From: Verrucomicrobiia bacterium
GTDB taxonomy: Bacteria; Verrucomicrobiota; Verrucomicrobiia; Verrucomicrobiales; DEV007
Reading direction: 5' to 3'
Length of the DNA stretch: 64,000 bases
Assembly (NCBI GenBank): GCA_030427505.1
Contig: JAUICH010000009.1
Span: 62,001 to 126,000, forward strand
The position numbers and the translations under genes are program-made. Positions 31,575 to 40,303 of this stretch are shown one piece after another. Each line of letters starts with the position of its first letter. Within the stretch, counting starts at the first letter, position 1. Under the pieces are notes generated by a model. It searched no databases. It saw nothing but the letters and a program-made list of their open reading frames with translations, and had not been told where the DNA came from.

Positions 31575-33371
31575 TCAATTGTTTCCGGCTTCAATATCGT
31601 ACTTGTTCAGATCGTCTCCGCGCACCCAGTCGCCATTCGGCAAGACCAGGGTAAAGGTACCGCCCGTGCCTTTGGCGATGGCTTCCAGTTCTTTCCGGGC
31701 GCGCAGTTCCTTCATACAGACCGTGTGAATCCGGGCCCTGGCGCGGGTTTTGTTATAGGAAAGCAGGTCCTCGATGACCGCGGACGCGGACGTCGTTTTG
31801 TCCACGCTCAGTTCGCCGTCCGTCATGAAGTAGATAGTGTCGGGCTTCATGTTGATGGCCATCTTGATGGGCCAGCGCCAGTCGGTGCCATGGACCAGTT
31901 GAGTTTTTTTGATCTGCTGAATGGTCAGCGAAAGATTCTCCGGAGTGGCCTTCAGATACCTTCCCACCGGAAGCAGGCCTCTGCCGTTTTCGTAGTGATA
32001 AAACATGGTGCCGGTGGACGAGGAGGCTTCCTTGAAGCGATTGTTTTCGTCCCAGCCCACATACCAGACGTGGCGGGTATTCCCATCGCGCACGATGTTG
32101 GCAAAGTAGCCGTTCTCGATCCGGGGCGACGTATAGTCGACCTCTTGCCCCGCGTACCAGGACGGCCCGCCAAAACAGATGATCTGGTACTCCACTCCTT
32201 CGGGCAGGGTTTCAATCGACCGGATCAGCTCATTCTTCGTCAGAGCCGCCCGGCCCTGCATGTTCATACTGGTGGAGAAATCCACGACAAAGACCACCCG
32301 CTTGCTCTTTGTCCGGGCGCCGAAAAAGGACACCGTTCCGCTGCCCTTTCCCACCGCGAAGGACATGTCCGTGCCGATGCCGCCGAGCACGCCCACGCTG
32401 TCGAAAGTTGGATTCGTGACGTCTACCGGCGGCAGCGCGATCTGAGAAAAGGCGTTGGCGCCGACCACATTCATTTGGGCGCTCGCCGGTTCCACGGGGC
32501 TCTGGCGCACCTGCTTGCGCACGCTCACGTTCTGAAGCGTGTCGCTCTCCACTGGCGCGGCCAGGGCCACGATCTGGGGCGGAGAGGCCCGTTGATGAAT
32601 GACGACCACCAACCCCACCACCAACAGAAGCGCCAGGTGGGCGACGATCGCCACGATGAGCGCGGAGATTCTTTCCCGCGTCATGCGGACGAGACGGCGG
32701 CTTTCGACCTCCGACCCCAAGTGGCTTAGAGCCAAGATCGATGGCCCCGAAGAAGCGGCTGCCGGGCGCGTTACTGGCGCGGATTCCTGTTTGATCTCTT
32801 CCGGAACGGGTTCGGGGGCGGACCGCGGTTCCGGCGCGGGCTCGGGTTCCAGGACGGAGACTTCCTCCTGAGCAGCGGGCTCGCCCTCCCACGTATTTTC
32901 CACCGGGGACGTCACCGGAGCCTCCCCCGCGCCCGCCGAATCGGAGGACTCCACCGGCGCGGCTTCCCACGGGATGCCCTGCTCGTCCAGCAGGGCCTCC
33001 AGTTCCGGATCGTCGAACGAAGCGTCCAGGGCCAGCGAGGCCGAGTGGTGGCGCGCCGCGCCATTCAGGTCCCCGCTTTGGGCGAGCAGGCGGGCGTAGC
33101 AATGATGTCCCCAGCCGCTGCCATGATTCCGGGCGAGAAAGGAGGTCAGAAGCGTGGTCAGCTTTTCCGGGTACCGGTTCAGCCCCAAGCGGGTGGCCCG
33201 AGCGAACTCTTCTTCCGACTCCGGTGGGAAGGGCGCTTGGGAAAGCAGACGCGCCGCTTCGTCCCCTTCGCCCCGCCCGGCCAAAGACTCCGCCAGTTCC
33301 AGGCGCAGCGTCCAGTCCCCCGGATGTTCCCGCAACTCCTTCGCGAGGAGTCGTTCGTTTTGCTCTGCCAT
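31575..33371 (-). CDS. Membrane VWA protein, paralogue 1
   Basis: The 598 residues share one design with the genes at 34960 and 36880. An N-terminal helical domain (residues 1-130, with EHPGDWTLRLELAE) resembles repeats but fits no TPR consensus exactly. A Pro/Glu-rich linker, one membrane helix (about 236-258, His245 in AIVAHLALLL) and a VWA domain follow. The VWA has MIDAS residues DFSTS at 364-368, a conserved HGTDWRWPIKMAINM block and FMTDG. The segment ENGYFANIVRDGNTRHVWYV lies in a long insertion not typical of VWA domains. N-in topology would place the VWA in the periplasm. The function is unknown. It lies upstream of a sulfatase. Confidence 0.85.
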   Translation of the reverse strand: MAEQNERLLAKELREHPGDWTLRLELAESLAGRGEGDEAARLLSQAPFPPESEEEFARATRLGLNRYPEKLTTLLTSFLARNHGSGWGHHCYARLLAQSGDLNGAARHHSASLALDASFDDPELEALLDEQGIPWEAAPVESSDSAGAGEAPVTSPVENTWEGEPAAQEEVSVLEPEPAPEPRSAPEPVPEEIKQESAPVTRPAAASSGPSILALSHLGSEVESRRLVRMTRERISALIVAIVAHLALLLVVGLVVVIHQRASPPQIVALAAPVESDTLQNVSVRKQVRQSPVEPASAQMNVVGANAFSQIALPPVDVTNPTFDSVGVLGGIGTDMSFAVGKGSGTVSFFGARTKSKRVVFVVDFSTSMNMQGRAALTKNELIRSIETLPEGVEYQIICFGGPSWYAGQEVDYTSPRIENGYFANIVRDGNTRHVWYVGWDENNRFKEASSSTGTMFYHYENGRGLLPVGRYLKATPENLSLTIQQIKKTQLVHGTDWRWPIKMAINMKPDTIYFMTDGELSVDKTTSASAVIEDLLSYNKTRARARIHTVCMKELRARKELEAIAKGTGGTFTLVLPNGDWVRGDDLNKYDIEAGNN

Positions 33372-33521
33372 GCTCCGGGGTTGGGGGTAAAGGTAACGGC
33401 CACCTGGCCGAACAGGAATTTCCTAGGGGTAAATGGAGATTCAGTCTTCCCGATGAAAACCGGAATTGTCCATTGAAAAACAGAAGCGCCTGATCCCTAA
33501 TTCTAGAGCACCTTCACACTC

Positions 33522-34949
33522 ATGAAAACTCCCCGTTCATTTACCTGGTTCTTTTCCTCGGCGGTTCTTTGCGCTTTACCAGCCTGCGGTCCCCAAGAGC
33601 CGGAGGCGGAGGTGGCGTCTTCCGGCGAGAAACCGGCGGGCGATGCCGCCGCCGAACACGCCACGCCGAAGACGCCCCAGTTTGAAGATTGGACGCGCTT
33701 TGGCGGACCGAACCGGGACAACACCTCCAACGAACCGCTCCCCAATATCCAGTGGGGTCCCGAAGGTCCGAAGGTGCTTTGGGAAATCGAATTGAACGAG
33801 GGCTTTGGCGGCGCGGCGGTGGACAGTGGCGAAGTATTTGTGGCCGACCGCACCTTTGGCGAGGCGGATGTGCTGCTTTGCCTGGACGCGGAAACCGGCG
33901 CGGAAAAGTGGCGCTACACCTTTGAAAATCCCGGCCGCCTTCCCCACCCCGGTTCGCGCGGCACGGCCACGGTGACGGACGACTCGGTGTACTTCACCGG
34001 AGGCTTTGGCGAAGTCCGGCGGATCAGCCGGGAAACGCACGAACCCGTGTGGACCGTGGCCATCCAGGAAAAGTACGAAACCCAGCCGCCAAAGTGGGGC
34101 TACGCGCAGTCTCCCCTGCTGGTGGACGATGTCGTCATCATCGCCCCCATGAGCGAGACCGTGGGCCTGGCGGGCCTGAACAAAGACACCGGCGAAGAAA
34201 TGTGGCGCACGGAAGGCTTCGGCGACAGTCACTCCACCCCCGTGCTCCTGGAACTTCAGGGCGTGCCCCAGGTAGTCTTCCTGGCGCAGAAAAACAAAGA
34301 AGCCGGCACGACCATCAGTGTCGATCCCGCCTCCGGCACGGTGCTGTGGAAAACGGACGCCTACCTGAACACCATCCCCATCACGCCGCCCACGAAGATT
34401 GACGAAGAACGCGTCTTCCTGACCGGCGGCTACGAATGCGGCTCCGTCATGCTGAAGGTGACCAAGGCAGGCGACGCCTGGAAGACGGAAAAACTGTGGG
34501 ACATCACCCAGGGCACGCAGATTCATCAGCCCCTCCTCCAAGACAACCACATCTACATGCTGGCCAACGAGAATGCTAACCACAACGGCGACGCCCGAGA
34601 AACGGGCGGTCTGATGTGTCTGGACTACGACGGCAACGTCAAGTGGCACACGGGCAACGACCCATTCATGGGACGGGGTAACTCCCTGATGGTGGGCGGC
34701 CTTCTTTTCATTCAGGACGGTGAAAACGGCGTGCTGCGCGTGGTCGATCCCGATCCCGCGGGCTACAAGCTGGTGGCGGAAGCGGACGTGTTCGGCAAAC
34801 TGGCGGAGACCGCCCATGCCGAGCCGGACAAGAAAGGCCGTCGTCCGGACTTCAAGTACTGGTCCCCCATGGCGCTCAGCCACGGACGCCTCTACATGCG
34901 CGGCCAGGATGTGCTGAAGTGCCTGGACCTCGCGCCGGACCAGACCTGA
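33522..34949 (+). CDS. PQQ-like beta-propeller lipoprotein
   Basis: The 475 residues begin with a lipoprotein signal (hydrophobic SSAVLCALPACG, lipobox cysteine about residue 24), so it is likely membrane-anchored in the periplasm. The rest is a seven- or eight-bladed propeller with PQQ-type repeats: WTRFGGPNRDNTS, CLDAETGAEKWRYTFE, GLNKDTGEEMWRTEGFG and SVDPASGTVLWKTDAY. Such proteins in Verrucomicrobiota and Planctomycetes are common; catalytic PQQ binding is not evident, so a binding or scaffolding role is more likely than dehydrogenase activity. It is transcribed opposite to the VWA genes on both sides and ends 11 bases from paralogue 2. Confidence 0.85.
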   Translation: MKTPRSFTWFFSSAVLCALPACGPQEPEAEVASSGEKPAGDAAAEHATPKTPQFEDWTRFGGPNRDNTSNEPLPNIQWGPEGPKVLWEIELNEGFGGAAVDSGEVFVADRTFGEADVLLCLDAETGAEKWRYTFENPGRLPHPGSRGTATVTDDSVYFTGGFGEVRRISRETHEPVWTVAIQEKYETQPPKWGYAQSPLLVDDVVIIAPMSETVGLAGLNKDTGEEMWRTEGFGDSHSTPVLLELQGVPQVVFLAQKNKEAGTTISVDPASGTVLWKTDAYLNTIPITPPTKIDEERVFLTGGYECGSVMLKVTKAGDAWKTEKLWDITQGTQIHQPLLQDNHIYMLANENANHNGDARETGGLMCLDYDGNVKWHTGNDPFMGRGNSLMVGGLLFIQDGENGVLRVVDPDPAGYKLVAEADVFGKLAETAHAEPDKKGRRPDFKYWSPMALSHGRLYMRGQDVLKCLDLAPDQT

Positions 34950-34959
34950 AAGCCGGGTC

Positions 34960-36693
34960 TCATTTGGGCGCGAACACATCGGCTCCGGGTTCCGAAGGCT
35001 TGTCCCCAAAACCGTGGGGATCTTTCCCGGTATCGAACTTGTCCAGGGCCTCCCCGGTGATCCACCGGCCTTCGTCCAGCACCAGCGAAAATTCCCCTCC
35101 CGAACCGTAGGCCAACTGCTCCAGCATAAGGCGGGCGCGCATCTCTTTCATGCAGATGGTATTGATGGTCGCGTTCCCCTTCTGCCTATTGTAAGCCAGC
35201 AATTCGTAGATCACGTCTTCGACAAACAAGCCGCCTTTCACGCCGCCGAAAACGCCGTCCGACATAAAGAAGATGGTGTCGGGCTCCATGTTCATGGCCA
35301 TGCGCAAAGGCCAGCGCCAGTCCGTTCCGTTTATCAATAGCGTCCTACGAATGTGGTCCAGCGAAATACGGCGGCTTTCCGGTGAGGATACCAGGTAGCC
35401 ACGGCTGGGAAGATGGTCGCTCCCTCCCGTGTAAAAGTAGTGAAAGTTCGACCCCTGATGATCAAACTCGTCCCAGCCCCGGGCCCAGACGTACTGAGCC
35501 CTGCCGTCGTACACGATGTTCACCTTGCGTCCGTTTCGGTTGAACTCTTTGACGGAAGCGACCCCCTGTCCGGCATACCACGCCGGTCCCGCGAAGAAGA
35601 TGATCTGGTAGAGCGTACCGTTTGGAAGTTCGCTGACCGCCCTGGAAAGCTCTGCTTTGGTAAGCTGGACCCGTCCGTCTCTCTTCATGGACAGCGAATG
35701 GTCGATCACAAAGACGATCCGCTCCCCCGTTGCTTCCGTCCCGAAAAAAGTGATGTCTTTCCCGAAGAACGATGGCGCCAGGGAGTAGCCCAGGCCCATC
35801 CCTTCCAGGCTGCCGGCCGGGCCCAGGGCAGTGGTCTGGCCGGAGATATCCGGCAACTGAACCGGGGACCGCAGACTTGGCAGGAGCACGTCCAGGCTGG
35901 CGCCCGTTTCTTCTTCGATCTCCTGAGCCTTCTTGGTGGGCGGCTTCGCGTGATCCAGGAGCCCCTTCTCCTTTGCCTTGGGTAACAAGGTCGCCACCAG
36001 CGGCGGATTTTCCGGCCGTGCCGGGATCGCGAACAGGCTGGCGAACCAGAGAAGAAAGGCCAAGTGACAGAGCAGAGCCACGGTCAAAGACTTGAGGCGG
36101 TCCAGAACCGTGACTTTCCTTCTTTTCGCGGCCTCGTCCCCGCCGCGATCTTCCGGCTTTTTAGAATGACGGGCGGCCCGCCGTTGCTGAGGCTGGCTGG
36201 GAACCAGGGCGGCAAACCCGCCACCGCCGGGCCAATACGGTTCCTCGCTCCCGTCACTCCAGGCCATCTCGTCAAAAACCGGATCCTCACCGGGAACCGC
36301 CGTTGCCTCCAGCAGGAGTTCTTCCAGTTCCCGGTCCCGAAACCGGATATCCAGATCCAGAGCCTTGAGATAGTGCTGAGAGGCGGACTCCCATTCCTCC
36401 CCCAGGGCCAGACTCCGGGCGTATTCGTACTGCCCCCAGGCGCTGTCAGGATGCTTCGCGGTGAAGGCTTCCAGAAACTCCCGCTTTCTGGCGGGGAAAA
36501 GGTCCAGCCCCAGTTCGATAGCCTTCTGGAATTGCGACTCGGTTTCGGGCTCTTCAGGAGCCTGACTTAGAAGCTCTGCCGCTTCGTCCCCGGCGCCACG
36601 GCCCACCAGTTTACCGGTCAAAAGCAGCCGGATGGACCAGTCGCCCGGGTGTTCCTCCAAGCCGCGAACCAGGACTGTTTCCAAAGCTGTCAT
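34960..36693 (-). CDS. Membrane VWA protein, paralogue 2
   Basis: The 577 residues have the same design as the paralogues at 31575 and 36880. The N-terminal helical domain includes LEEHPGDWSIRLLL and GDEAAELLSQAPEEPE. A basic stretch leads into one membrane helix (about 203-223, His210 in ALLCHLAFLL), and a VWA domain has MIDAS DHSLS (331-335), INGTDWRWPLRMAMNM, the FMSDG motif and a C-terminal INTICMKEMRARLMLEQL block. The ending EFSLVLDEGRWITGEALDKF is conserved in all three, so the C-terminus is under selection. It follows paralogue 3 on the minus strand with a 186-base gap. No function is known for this family to me. Confidence 0.85.
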   Translation of the reverse strand: MTALETVLVRGLEEHPGDWSIRLLLTGKLVGRGAGDEAAELLSQAPEEPETESQFQKAIELGLDLFPARKREFLEAFTAKHPDSAWGQYEYARSLALGEEWESASQHYLKALDLDIRFRDRELEELLLEATAVPGEDPVFDEMAWSDGSEEPYWPGGGGFAALVPSQPQQRRAARHSKKPEDRGGDEAAKRRKVTVLDRLKSLTVALLCHLAFLLWFASLFAIPARPENPPLVATLLPKAKEKGLLDHAKPPTKKAQEIEEETGASLDVLLPSLRSPVQLPDISGQTTALGPAGSLEGMGLGYSLAPSFFGKDITFFGTEATGERIVFVIDHSLSMKRDGRVQLTKAELSRAVSELPNGTLYQIIFFAGPAWYAGQGVASVKEFNRNGRKVNIVYDGRAQYVWARGWDEFDHQGSNFHYFYTGGSDHLPSRGYLVSSPESRRISLDHIRRTLLINGTDWRWPLRMAMNMEPDTIFFMSDGVFGGVKGGLFVEDVIYELLAYNRQKGNATINTICMKEMRARLMLEQLAYGSGGEFSLVLDEGRWITGEALDKFDTGKDPHGFGDKPSEPGADVFAPK

Positions 36694-36879
36694 GCCACCG
36701 TCTAATGGGAGCCCATGAAGTCCGCGAAGGCACGGATCCCGCCTCCACCAGGAAATCCTCTCCCGCCTGCGTCAGTGTGCCGCGTGCCCGGCCTCTTGAG
36801 GAATCCGAAAACTGTAAAAGTTCCCGCCTGCTTTTGACACAGCTTTTACACTACGGAATCTCCGCGGACCCGATCCCCG

Positions 36880-38685
36880 TTACTCCACCGGAAGGGTACC
36901 CGGCGGCCGTCTCTTAGGAGGATCAACGGGCAGATCGGGCTGCTCGGTATCGTATTCATCGAGTTCTTTGCCCCGGACCCAGGTGCCATCACCCAGCACC
37001 AGAGTAAACTCTCCGCCAGTACCGCTGGCCAGTTGCTCCAGCTCGGCACGGGCGCTGATTTCTTTCATGCAAACCGTGTTGATCCGGGACTTCGCCTTTG
37101 CCTGATTGTAGGCCAGCAGTTCGTCTATGACATCCGCCGCGGTAAGTCCTTCCTCTTCCACTTCCACTTCGCCAAAAACGCCGTCGGTCATGAAGTAGAT
37201 AGTTTCCGGCTCCAGGTTAATGGCCATGCGGAGCGGCCAGCGCCAGTCGGTGCCGTTCACCAATTCCACCCGCCGGATGTCCCGGAGAGTCTCTTTCCTG
37301 GTCTTCTCGTCAGCCTTCAGATAGCCGGCCCGCGGCAGCTCAGCCGTGCCTTTGTCATAACAGTAGTGAAAGCCGCTCGTCTCCTGCCGGTGTTCCTTGT
37401 CCCAGCCCTCGTACCAGACGTACTCTTCGTCACCATCCTCCACCACGTTTCCCAGGTAACCGTTCAGGGGAAAGGGAAAATTGGCTTTCACTTTCTGTCC
37501 CGCGTACCAGGCGGGCCCCGCGTAAAAGATCACCTGGTAGAGTGTCCCTTCCGGCAGTTGCTCCACCGACCGGGACAACTCGCGCTTGGTCAGCCGCTCT
37601 CTGCCCCCCCGGTGCATGGAGTTGGAAAAGTCCACCACATAGACCACCTTCTTTGCCCGGGTCATGCTTCCAAAAAAAGAGATGGAGCCCTCATTACCGC
37701 CCGGAGAGTAGGACGGGCCGGCGCCGATGCCGTCCAACAAACCCACCGGCCCCAAGTCCAGGGCCTGGCTTTCATAACTGGGAACCAACGCGGCAGACCG
37801 TGCCGCCGGCGCGATCAAGCTCAGGCTGGCACTGGCCGTTTCGGCTTGTTTCCGGGGAACCTTTTTCTGTATGCGTTGTTCCTCCAGCCTCACGGCCTCC
37901 TCCGGTTCCGGAGACAGGAACGCCACGAGTTCCGGCGGACGGACTGTCCGGCGCGGCAAGATGACAAAGGCCAGCGCCACCAGCAGCCCCAAGTGGAGCA
38001 GCAGGGCCACGGTGAATGACGAAAGCTTTTCGCGAGTGCCCCCTCTCCACCGGATCCACCCCCACGGACTGCGCTTTCCTCCGGATGAATCCACGGAATC
38101 TCTGGGGGGCAATTGGATGATGTCTGCCCGGTATTCCTCAGACGGAGCCGTCGCGCCATCTTCATGTGTGGAAACCGGCCCCAGGGGAATAATGCTCTCC
38201 GGCAGAGGCGGGGTGTAGGGCGCCTGGGTTTCCGGCGAACCAGGAGATTCCGTTTCTACTGGCGTGGCTTCGTCCCATGTCAGAACGTCTTCCTCCCTCC
38301 CCTCCAAGAGGTCCTCCAGGTCCGGGTCCCGAACGCTCAGGTCCAAAGCGAGCGCTTCCATGTACTGCCCGGACGCGGCTTCCAGGTCGCCTTCCAGGGC
38401 CAGAGCCCGGGCGTAGGCATGCCGGGCCCAGGCGCTGTGTGGTCTCCGGCCAACAAAGGCTGACAGAAAATTCCGGTGTGTCTCGGGAAGCGTTCCCAAC
38501 CCGAGGTCGAGGGCCCGCTGAAATTGATCTTCCGTGTCCGGAGGCTCCGGGGCCTCTTCCAGCAGCGCGGCGGCTTCATGGCCCGCTCCCCGGCCCACCA
38601 GCTTTCCCGCCAGTTCCAGCCGGATGGCCCAATCGCCCGGATGCTCCTCCAGGCCGCGGGCGAGAACTTTCTCCAAGGCAGTCAT
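36880..38685 (-). CDS. Membrane VWA protein, paralogue 3
   Basis: The 601 residues start at MTALEKVLARGLEEHPGDW, aligned with paralogue 2 (MTALETVLVRGLEEHPGDW); upstream in-frame residues are not shared, so the ATG at 38685 is preferred over 38742. Layout is a helical N-domain, an acidic Pro-rich linker, a membrane helix with His231 in ALLLHLGLLV, then a VWA domain with MIDAS DFSNS, VNGTDWRWPLRMAINL, FMTDG, and the conserved end FTLVLGDGTWVRGKELDEYD. It is closest to paralogue 2 at the N-terminus, suggesting a recent duplication of that pair. It is divergent from the Smr gene. Confidence 0.84.
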   Translation of the reverse strand: MTALEKVLARGLEEHPGDWAIRLELAGKLVGRGAGHEAAALLEEAPEPPDTEDQFQRALDLGLGTLPETHRNFLSAFVGRRPHSAWARHAYARALALEGDLEAASGQYMEALALDLSVRDPDLEDLLEGREEDVLTWDEATPVETESPGSPETQAPYTPPLPESIIPLGPVSTHEDGATAPSEEYRADIIQLPPRDSVDSSGGKRSPWGWIRWRGGTREKLSSFTVALLLHLGLLVALAFVILPRRTVRPPELVAFLSPEPEEAVRLEEQRIQKKVPRKQAETASASLSLIAPAARSAALVPSYESQALDLGPVGLLDGIGAGPSYSPGGNEGSISFFGSMTRAKKVVYVVDFSNSMHRGGRERLTKRELSRSVEQLPEGTLYQVIFYAGPAWYAGQKVKANFPFPLNGYLGNVVEDGDEEYVWYEGWDKEHRQETSGFHYCYDKGTAELPRAGYLKADEKTRKETLRDIRRVELVNGTDWRWPLRMAINLEPETIYFMTDGVFGEVEVEEEGLTAADVIDELLAYNQAKAKSRINTVCMKEISARAELEQLASGTGGEFTLVLGDGTWVRGKELDEYDTEQPDLPVDPPKRRPPGTLPVE

Positions 38686-38842
38686 TCTGGCATCAGGCGA
38701 AGGGGCAATACCGGCGGACGGGGAAGTCATCCCTGTAATCACAATGTATTAACACAACCCGGAAAATTCCGTCCATCGAAAAATGATTGGGGCCTCCTCC
38801 CTGGCCGGGATAGCATGCGGAATCATTTACCGGAACAAAAGG

Positions 38843-39181
38843 ATGTCTTCGGAGGAGTTTGAGGATCAAGAGCCCGTGGAGCACCCCATCACCTCCGAGC
38901 TGGACCTTCACACCTTCCGGCCCAGCGAGATCGGATCGCTCCTGCCGGAATACTTCCGGGAATGCCGCCTGCGGGAACTGCTTGAGGTCCGGGTCATTCA
39001 CGGGAAAGGCACCGGCACGCTCCGGGAAGGGGTGCATCGCCTGCTGGACCGTTTGCCGGAAGTGATTTCCTACCGCCAGGGAAACGAAACCAGCGGCGGT
39101 TGGGGCGCTACCTGGGTCACCCTACGCCCGATGACGGCGGCGGAGGCGGAAGAGGCCACCGCCGAAGGCGACGCCAAGTAA
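38843..39181 (+). CDS. Small stand-alone Smr-domain protein
   Basis: This 112-residue protein is essentially one Smr domain: LDLHTF (the LDxH motif), a helix, and IHGKGTGTLREGVHRLL (HGxGxG motif), then a final strand WGATWVTL. Stand-alone Smr proteins act as endonucleases or RNA/DNA-binding factors, for example in ribosome rescue; the substrate here is unknown. The ATG at 38843 (MSSEEFEDQ) is preferred because the longer reading adds a hydrophobic stretch unlike the family. Its 3' end overlaps the convergent PEP-CTERM protease gene by 60 bases. The acidic tail EEATAEGDAK is not part of the domain. Confidence 0.85.
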   Translation: MSSEEFEDQEPVEHPITSELDLHTFRPSEIGSLLPEYFRECRLRELLEVRVIHGKGTGTLREGVHRLLDRLPEVISYRQGNETSGGWGATWVTLRPMTAAEAEEATAEGDAK

Positions 39182-40006
39182 AGCGATGGTGCCGGGCTCC
39201 GGAACTGCCGCCGCGATGGTGTCCGCGTACGGGCCCACCAGCGAATCCACCGAGAAATCTCCGTTGGAAGGACCAATGGCGCCGACGTCCGCCCGTTCGG
39301 AATGGAAGCCCACCAGTTTCAGGACTCCGCCATCCACAGTAAAGGTGGGAGCGCCGGAGTCACCTATTTCCACCACGCTCTCTCCGGTACCGGACGAAGT
39401 GTCATAGGTAAAAGTGTAGGTCCAGTTGTTTAATACACCGCCACCACCAGTGTCATTGATGAAATCCACGCTGCCGGAATCGATCACATTGGTTCCTACC
39501 CGGAAATTGGTGTCACCCGTGCCGTCCGCGATTCCCACCGTATATAGGGAGAGTCCCTCATAGTCCGTGTAGGTCCCCACGGGTCCCAGTTCCAGAATGT
39601 CGTAAAAGGTGACACTCGCCGAAATGGGAGACGTCAGGCGCCCCAGCCAGATGTCCGACCCCGCGTCCCCAATCTCCATCCCGTATAGGGTGTCGATGGT
39701 GAGATCTTCGAAACTGCCGGAGGGATTGTTGTCATAGTAAAACCGCACCGTCCCCGAAGGCCGGAAATGCTCCGCGGTAATGAAGTAGGTGTCCGAAATC
39801 ATCGTCACCCACCGCCCGTCCGTGCTGAGGCCCACCCCGGACCAGTCAAAGGTGGAGCCGATGAATGAGGGGTCGTTCTCAAACCGGTCGTGGAGAGCGG
39901 CATCGTAGTTGAGGACTTCGATTGCCTGGGCATCCGCGAACCAACCAGTCAAGATCGCCAGAAAGAGGCACCTTCGAAAAAGGAACCGGGGAAAGATGCG
40001 AAGCAT
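39122..40006 (-). CDS. Trypsin-like serine protease with PEP-CTERM anchor
   Basis: The 294-residue exported protein has a signal peptide (FLFRRCLFLAILTGWFADAQA). It appears to be an S1-type protease: a TAEH motif (catalytic His; trypsin has TAAHC), DIWLGRL (catalytic Asp; compare DIALLRL) and GDSGAPTF (catalytic Ser; compare GDSGGP). The C-terminus is a PEP-CTERM sorting signal: VPEPGTIALL, a hydrophobic segment and an Arg-rich end RLRRRHRA, cut and processed by an exosortase. The protease reading is mine from the three motifs in correct order and spacing. The ATG at 40006 starts the signal peptide directly. Confidence 0.75.
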   Translation of the reverse strand: MLRIFPRFLFRRCLFLAILTGWFADAQAIEVLNYDAALHDRFENDPSFIGSTFDWSGVGLSTDGRWVTMISDTYFITAEHFRPSGTVRFYYDNNPSGSFEDLTIDTLYGMEIGDAGSDIWLGRLTSPISASVTFYDILELGPVGTYTDYEGLSLYTVGIADGTGDTNFRVGTNVIDSGSVDFINDTGGGGVLNNWTYTFTYDTSSGTGESVVEIGDSGAPTFTVDGGVLKLVGFHSERADVGAIGPSNGDFSVDSLVGPYADTIAAAVPEPGTIALLGVAFGGGLFRLRRRHRA

Positions 40007-40303
40007 GGGAACAGTGTAAACGAGCAAAGGTTGACTATTAAAATATTCTAAAATTATGGGAATCACAAGATCCCTTATTTCTTCTGGATCTGCTTTTCTG
40101 TTCAGGAACCATGAGATCATCGTTGGGGGATTCCCTTCGAAGAGCATCCGGGAGATGGCGGAAAGGCTTCAGGACACGTGAAACGGAAAACTTTCCCAGC
40201 ATGAAATTCACCCCGCGACTTAGTCAGGCCCGCCAGCCGGGCGGCACGGTGGCACTAGCTTTCCACTTGACCCTCCTTTGCGCGGCATCGAAGAATCGCC
40301 TTT

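Follow-up and report, generated by a model that had tools for sequence, protein, structure and literature searches.

What do three related membrane proteins, each ending in a VWA domain, do for a Verrucomicrobiia bacterium? The question is raised by a stretch of 64,000 nucleotides of contig JAUICH010000009.1 (the window; contig 4 of a source genome of 6.4 Mb in 56 contigs), which carries the paralogous genes P0001, P0002 and P0003 (the trio) on its minus strand. We consider it probable (roughly 0.6) that the trio are orphan, duplicated, TPR-bearing arms of a motor of the ExbB/TolQ-ExbD/TolR type driven by the proton motive force (PMF), that is, VWA force transducers laid out like TonB and TolA. 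The three genes are as follows:

31575..33371, minus strand: VWA paralogue P0001, 598 residues; Pfam TPR_19 at 22.4 bits, below the cut-off of 25
34960..36693, minus strand: VWA paralogue P0002, 577 residues; TPR_19 at 25.4 bits, cut-off 25
36880..38742, minus strand: VWA paralogue P0003, 620 residues from a GTG, 601 from the likely ATG start at 38685; TPR_19 at 27.9 bits, cut-off 25

Domain layout and coding constraint of the trio

All three open reading frames (ORFs) are intact in the ORF list and translations of the window. The longer P0003 ORF, which opens with the GTG and ends at 38742, contains an ATG at its residue 20 (position 38685), and since P0002 opens with the same MTALE, this ATG is likely the real start, in agreement with the gene end of 38685 given in the original prediction. 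P0002 and P0001 are 50% and 44% identical to P0003, and 175 of the 658 columns of the trio alignment are invariant, including the EHPGDW, CMKE..AR and LVL..G.W..G..L blocks previously noted as common to the three proteins, as well as GTDWRWP. Divergence among the trio is highest at codon position 3 (0.57-0.61 vs 0.32-0.42 at position 2), and different codons are used at about half of the identical residues, so that the comparison points to coding sequence under constraint and to an old duplication, neither a recent copy nor chance. A tree built from 53 VWA domains places the trio in a clade of its own (100/98). Both results bear out the earlier proposal of a locally duplicated, functional-looking set.

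The trio shares a TPR-like helical domain, a linker, one transmembrane (TM) helix and a VWA domain with a complete metal ion-dependent adhesion site (MIDAS). An AlphaFold2 model of P0003 was built from 54 aligned sequences, with a mean predicted local distance difference test score (pLDDT) of 75.5, and gives a helical domain, a TM helix and a confident VWA fold; ORFs, alignment and model thus agree with the gene positions and common layout claimed for the three genes. Apart from the TM helices, the features of P0003 are:

38284..38685, minus strand: N-terminal TPR-like helical domain, residues 20-153; AlphaFold2 pLDDT blocks of 84-97, Pfam TPR_19, predicted to be cytoplasmic
36943..37695, minus strand: VWA domain, residues 350-600, with a complete MIDAS, from the AlphaFold2 model, alignment and comparison with the PDB
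37234..37254, minus strand: GTDWRWP block, the MIDAS motif 2 loop that holds T498, from alignments of 18 and 54 rows

The helical domain is modeled with confidence at residues 16-153, with eight helices at 22-153, and designed TPR chains are among its Foldseek matches. Pfam TPR_19 matches the N-terminus above the cut-off in P0002 and P0003 and under it in P0001. By the definition of a TPR domain as tandem helix pairs that match TPR models, the N-terminus of the trio qualifies as one. The linkers on either side of the TM helix (residues 154-234 and 275-347) are both of low confidence in the model, and the proline content of the post-TM linker is 9.5-12.5% across the trio.

The VWA fold extends over about residues 350-600, with ten-residue pLDDT blocks mostly at least 90 and none lower than 68. 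Pfam VWA stayed below its cut-off in P0001 and P0002 and gave no match in P0003, and no NCBIfam model scored above its cut-off for any of the three. The VWA part of P0003 matched the PDB with a best Z of 20.9 (root-mean-square deviation 2.2 over 164 residues, 9c4f_I). Solved VWA domains of inter-alpha-inhibitor heavy chains, CLCA1, alpha-2/delta and a Catenulispora protein (4fx5) share the fold, with Z up to 20.9, but P0003 is just 16-24% identical to them over the aligned part and resembles them in the VWA domain only, so no functional claim follows from the likeness. The MIDAS residues of P0003 (D371, S373, S375, T498 and D520) are all invariant in an 18-row alignment, and T498 is kept in at least 90% of the 54 rows; judged by the DxSxS...T...D pattern, the trio has MIDAS-type VWA domains. 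The GTDWRWP block, which the original prediction listed among unusual blocks, is indeed conserved, but its Thr is the MIDAS Thr (T498), and it is the second MIDAS loop and not a special block apart from the VWA domain.

The transmembrane histidine and motor operons of relatives

Williams-Jones et al. (2025; PMC12204202) proposed, from structure prediction, a class of motor-driven vWA force transducers with a TonB/TolA-like layout, including a vWA family of Tichowtungia. In the passages of that paper on these proteins, the genes are frequently, and not obligatorily, neighbors of one TolQ-like gene and a pair of TolR-like genes, 'many' members of the first family carry SHLS in the TM helix, including an essential His, and no deletion phenotypes are reported. 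With its TM helix, linker and vWA domain, this class departs from the initial impression that no described family has such an arrangement, and homologues with the full TPR-TM-VWA layout occur in motor operons (L120, L219 and L217, the last with only two ExbD genes in the stretch available).

The trio proteins resemble the published transducers, as described in those passages, in the TM helix with a His, the disordered or Pro-rich linker and the C-terminal vWA domain, and some of their homologues lie beside ExbB/TolQ-like, two ExbD/TolR-like and TPR genes. They differ, by the same description, in an N-terminal TPR-like domain of approximately 130 residues, of which we found no mention in the passages, in their orphan, triplicated state next to genes for a sulfatase and a PQQ propeller, and in the SHLS positions, where Ser is absent. 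The neighboring motor genes that frequently accompany the published class are missing beside the trio; they are present in 12 of the 80 loci described below, in L219 and, as far as the stretch goes, in L217. TonB and TolA of E. coli K-12 likewise have a TM helix with a His near its start, a periplasm-spanning linker (predicted for the trio) and a separate C-terminal domain, but in the trio the last is a VWA domain (TonB_C was not matched at E 1 or below in a Pfam scan) and a large TPR-like domain precedes the TM helix. The TM helices are:

37960..38037, minus strand: TM helix of P0003, residues 236-261, with His250, from AlphaFold2; the His is kept in 90% or more of the 18 aligned rows and the helix was aligned to the TM helices of K-12 TonB and TolA
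36025..36081, minus strand: TM helix of P0002, core residues 205-223, with the conserved His, from sequence comparison
32598..32654, minus strand: TM helix of P0001, core residues 240-258, with the conserved His, from sequence comparison

The His lies early in the TM helix of all three proteins, and the helices can be aligned around it with those of E. coli K-12 TolA and TonB; seven residues after the His the trio has V, F or L. Positive charges within 20 residues number 5, 6 and 5 on the N-terminal side of the TM helices vs 1, 4 and 3 on the C-terminal side, which, by the positive-inside rule, suggests that the TPR domain is cytoplasmic and the VWA domain periplasmic. The linker behind the TM helix of the published first family is described as holding a motor box, a beta strand. 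A P-x-I/L-V/T-A segment recurs after the TM helix in the trio, where the AlphaFold2 model of P0003 gives low pLDDT and no strand.

Relatives were collected by scanning a genome collection of 84,980 species; the scan required one short peptide pattern and therefore leaves room for members in other phyla. It gave 139 relatives, the best 80 of which were kept as loci (numbered L; 1.29 Mb), all titled Verrucomicrobiota or groups within. Some match at E 1e-5 was present in 41 of 57 genomes searched, and a match at E 1e-40 with a three-row profile in 26 of 112 genomes sampled from the order (source genome included in both counts). The 54-row alignment omits L137, L138, L087 and other near relatives, and the 53-row tree also omits L098, whose VWA part is too short. 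In the tree the trio is nested in a 15-row clade (100/98) of TPR-VWA proteins, an 18-row clade (100/99) contains nine motor-adjacent members, and motor-adjacent L133 is placed elsewhere on a long branch of unsure position. Fourteen loci were assigned to the TPR-VWA clade, 12 from their position in the tree and two (L087 and L098) from similarity. Twelve of them have a single copy of the gene and two (L091 and L098) a second, cut-off copy, so that the idea of copies always occurring in multiples does not hold, though several of the contigs are short. In L092 the TPR and VWA parts are split over two overlapping ORFs.

Motor genes were found beside a subset of these relatives. In a few loci, greedy gene calling had missed genuine genes masked by long antisense ORFs, as with the VWA gene of L083, and the ExbB and ExbD profiles, built from the same loci that were counted and from the genes of the source genome, were therefore run on all ORFs; a search with the source genome's genes alone returned the same 12 loci. 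Each of these has ExbB-ExbD-ExbD upstream of, and on the same strand as, the VWA gene. The second ExbD is 4-60 bases from the VWA gene in nine (L104, L110, L118, L120, L126, L131, L133, L137 and L138), one ORF intervenes in L146 and L149, and a 2.7 kb gap in L123. A thirteenth locus with motor genes, L088, has them on the opposite strand at a distance of 8.4 kb. A gene related to a 965-residue TPR protein follows in eight of the 12 (L104, L110, L118, L120, L126, L131, L146 and L149) and precedes in L133 and L138. The VWA protein of L120, encoded between ExbD and the TPR gene, shows the complete TPR-TM-VWA layout and aligns with P0003 over residues 20-601 (E 5e-40). The same layout follows ExbB and two ExbD genes in L219, from another genome, and two ExbD genes in L217, where the fetched stretch ends; across the 28 loci L194-L221, ExbD was found in four.

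Excluding six of 83 VWA-family ORFs shorter than 330 residues, 42 of 77 members have the TM His, 11 of the 12 that are motor-linked vs 31 of the 65 others (Fisher p 0.005, with relatedness uncorrected in both counts and L133, L137 and L138 looking like close relatives of one another). The His is present in 13 of the 14 TPR-VWA clade loci, and the rest of the TM helix varies. As background, a His was found in 8 of 61 single-TM-like proteins encoded in these loci, and in 24 of 165 when any strong hydrophobic stretch was accepted.

Motor arms and the alternatives

If the trio are motor arms, the TPR domain would sit in the cytoplasm, as the charges suggest, and the TM helix would use the conserved His to dock, by homology with TonB and TolA, against the side of an ExbB-like pentamer. 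The linker and the P-x-I/L-V/T-A segment would span the periplasm, and the VWA domain at the far end may bind a periplasmic or outer-membrane ligand via its MIDAS metal, on which the motor would pull.

A probable motor for them in the source genome is an operon on contig 6 (822-825 kb; 822164-825078; L063:10165-13538) with ExbB, two ExbD genes, a gene for a 516-residue arm protein and a TPR gene. This arm protein has a similar TM-and-linker part and a C-terminal match to Pfam SQHop_cyclase_C (26.9 bits, cut-off 26.1), on which our label 'toroid' rests; the structure model of a toroid arm was poor (mean pLDDT 52.8 from seven rows) and was left out of the fold search. The contig 6 arm protein has matches at E 1e-40 in 93 of those 112 genomes, its own included, a number of which cover the C-terminal domain only. 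ExbD lies upstream in seven of 30 loci of the contig 6 arm type (own included, flanks of about 1.5 kb). The two arm types are linked in seven loci, in which the gene for a toroid-like arm, similar in its TM part, stands immediately before a TPR-VWA gene. An Hsp70 gene precedes such a toroid-VWA pair in L082, L083, L085 and L088; the Hsp70 gene of the source genome lies on contig 6 among genes with housekeeping-looking names, as read by eye, and without the toroid-VWA pair, and we rejected Hsp70 as a functional partner, as the arrangement may be plain synteny.

Several observations weigh against the trio being motor arms. ExbB and ExbD genes were found neither in the window nor elsewhere on contig 4, and the profile search of all ORFs found no adjacent motor in 68 of the 80 loci and no motor genes in 67; for 15 of the 80, less than 3 kb separates the start of the VWA gene from the start of the locus, and a motor could be cut off there. 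The TM His is missing in 35 of the 77 homologues, so that this part of the VWA family would be unable to work by His docking, and it is missing in motor-adjacent L146 and in L093 of the trio's own clade. At the SHLS Ser positions the trio has Ala four residues before the His in all three proteins, and V, F or I eleven residues after it. Three TonB_C genes also occur in the source genome, each of them close to a further ExbB/ExbD cluster, so the trio could serve other motors, or none.

Proteins that serve no motor might, as the chief alternative, be envelope anchors or receptors, in which the VWA domain would bind a periplasmic or outer-membrane ligand, the TPR domain would relay its state to the cytoplasm as a sensor or scaffold, and the TM His would be a relic of a motor-linked ancestor. 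The orphan state of the trio genes is consistent with this, as is the lack of a motor link for 34 of the 35 homologues without the His, and a cytoplasmic TPR domain, foreign to TonB and TolA, suggests a cytoplasmic partner. We nonetheless regard such anchors as unlikely, given that the His is kept throughout the trio and in all but one of the 14 clade loci while the remaining TM residues vary, and that TPR-bearing members are present in motor operons. Those operons, together with a single TM helix followed by the VWA domain, also do not fit a MoxR/Bat-type system, in which the trio would be VWA co-proteins of an AAA+ ATPase. VWA plus TPR proteins do occur in Bat operons, and a gene that by eye, not by a scan, we take to be MoxR-like lies a few genes downstream of a short VWA gene in L048, but no such ATPase was recognized by eye, no profile search for it having been made, near the trio or the TPR-VWA clade members, and we judge this explanation very improbable. 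Scarcely credible is membership in a second family, vWA proteins whose TM helix enters the TolQ pore via an Asp and which, in the passages describing them, occur in Verrucomicrobia (Williams-Jones et al., 2025). This family likewise combines a VWA domain and a TM helix, but none of the three trio TM cores contains an Asp, and in the operons of the motor-linked homologues ExbB is accompanied by two ExbD genes, whereas the second family is described as lacking TolR/ExbD neighbors.

Returning to the motor-arm reading, we tentatively propose, as a conjecture that may well prove wrong, that one PMF motor of these Verrucomicrobiota drives a kit of exchangeable arms that have the TM helix and linker in common, in many cases together with a cytoplasmic TPR domain, and that end in a VWA domain with an intact MIDAS, a VWA domain with a degraded MIDAS, a squalene-cyclase-like alpha/alpha toroid or at least one further, unassigned domain. 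The trio would then be three arms for different envelope ligands, and the TPR domain would choose or regulate which arm engages. Two features appear to be new relative to the published class, namely triplicated orphans that bear a TPR domain, and a cyclase-like domain occupying the arm slot of such an operon: neither was found in the passages on these proteins, 'prenyltransferase' and 'squalene' are absent from the main text of that paper, and titles and abstract beginnings in the open literature collection searched gave no further paper describing such proteins. The locus would tie orphan, multiplied, TPR-bearing members to the motor-coupled vWA class, and the arm slot of one kind of operon can apparently hold a different C-terminal domain. 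Whether several arms share one motor, and what they pull, becomes a testable question.

Neighboring genes and related loci

Two genes adjoin P0001:

30026..31594, minus strand: sulfatase downstream of P0001; Pfam Sulfatase 1.4e-56, likely start at an ATG shortly after the P0001 stop, signal peptide by eye
33522..34949, plus strand: PQQ-type beta-propeller (BamB-like), divergent from P0001; Pfam PQQ_2 3.8e-21, lipobox-like LPAC by eye

The propeller, by analogy with TolB, and the sulfatase may point to envelope or sulfated-glycan handling. The suggestion that copies lie near sulfatase or PQQ-propeller genes was borne out in individual loci and not in general. An ortholog of the window's sulfatase is directly downstream of the VWA gene in L083 (69% identical) and L085 (66%), both from one other genus, and was not seen in L082, a third locus of that genus. 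Some sulfatase match is present in 22 of the 80 loci, and all others are below 45% identity to the window's; general sulfatase proximity was therefore rejected as a link, and only the two directly downstream copies count. A 56% identical PQQ propeller is divergent from the VWA gene, as beside P0001, in L091 only. In L098 a Lactonase-type 7-bladed propeller (L098:1644-2711), unrelated to the window's propeller family, is divergent from the TPR-VWA gene, and the second, cut-off VWA gene lies further along.

The source genome has two more distant trio homologues in tandem on contig 43. They belong to a related TPR-TM-VWA-like family whose genes stand in tandem, two to four at a time (contig 43:111900-115600, equivalent to L035:9919-13607; L042:8021-13677; L044:6168-13365; L045; L069-L071). 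In the first contig 43 copy DxSxS reads DAEKY and the MIDAS looks lost; the second keeps DASPS. L054:10350-15467 encodes a 1705-residue protein with helix-hairpin-helix matches mid-protein and a C-terminal VWA domain of the trio's family. Between ExbD and the VWA gene of L149, a 374-residue protein (L149:6391-7515) shares the TM part and has a different C-terminal domain without a Pfam match above the cut-off, which by eye we take to be reminiscent of PA14; BLAST of the shared TM part had made it a candidate toroid arm, and the alignment showed the other C-terminal domain.

Beyond P0003, the window encodes an Smr-domain protein in divergent orientation to it (38783-39181, plus strand) and a protein with a C-terminal PEP-CTERM sorting motif (39122-40147, minus strand; 22.2 bits, cut-off 20.7).

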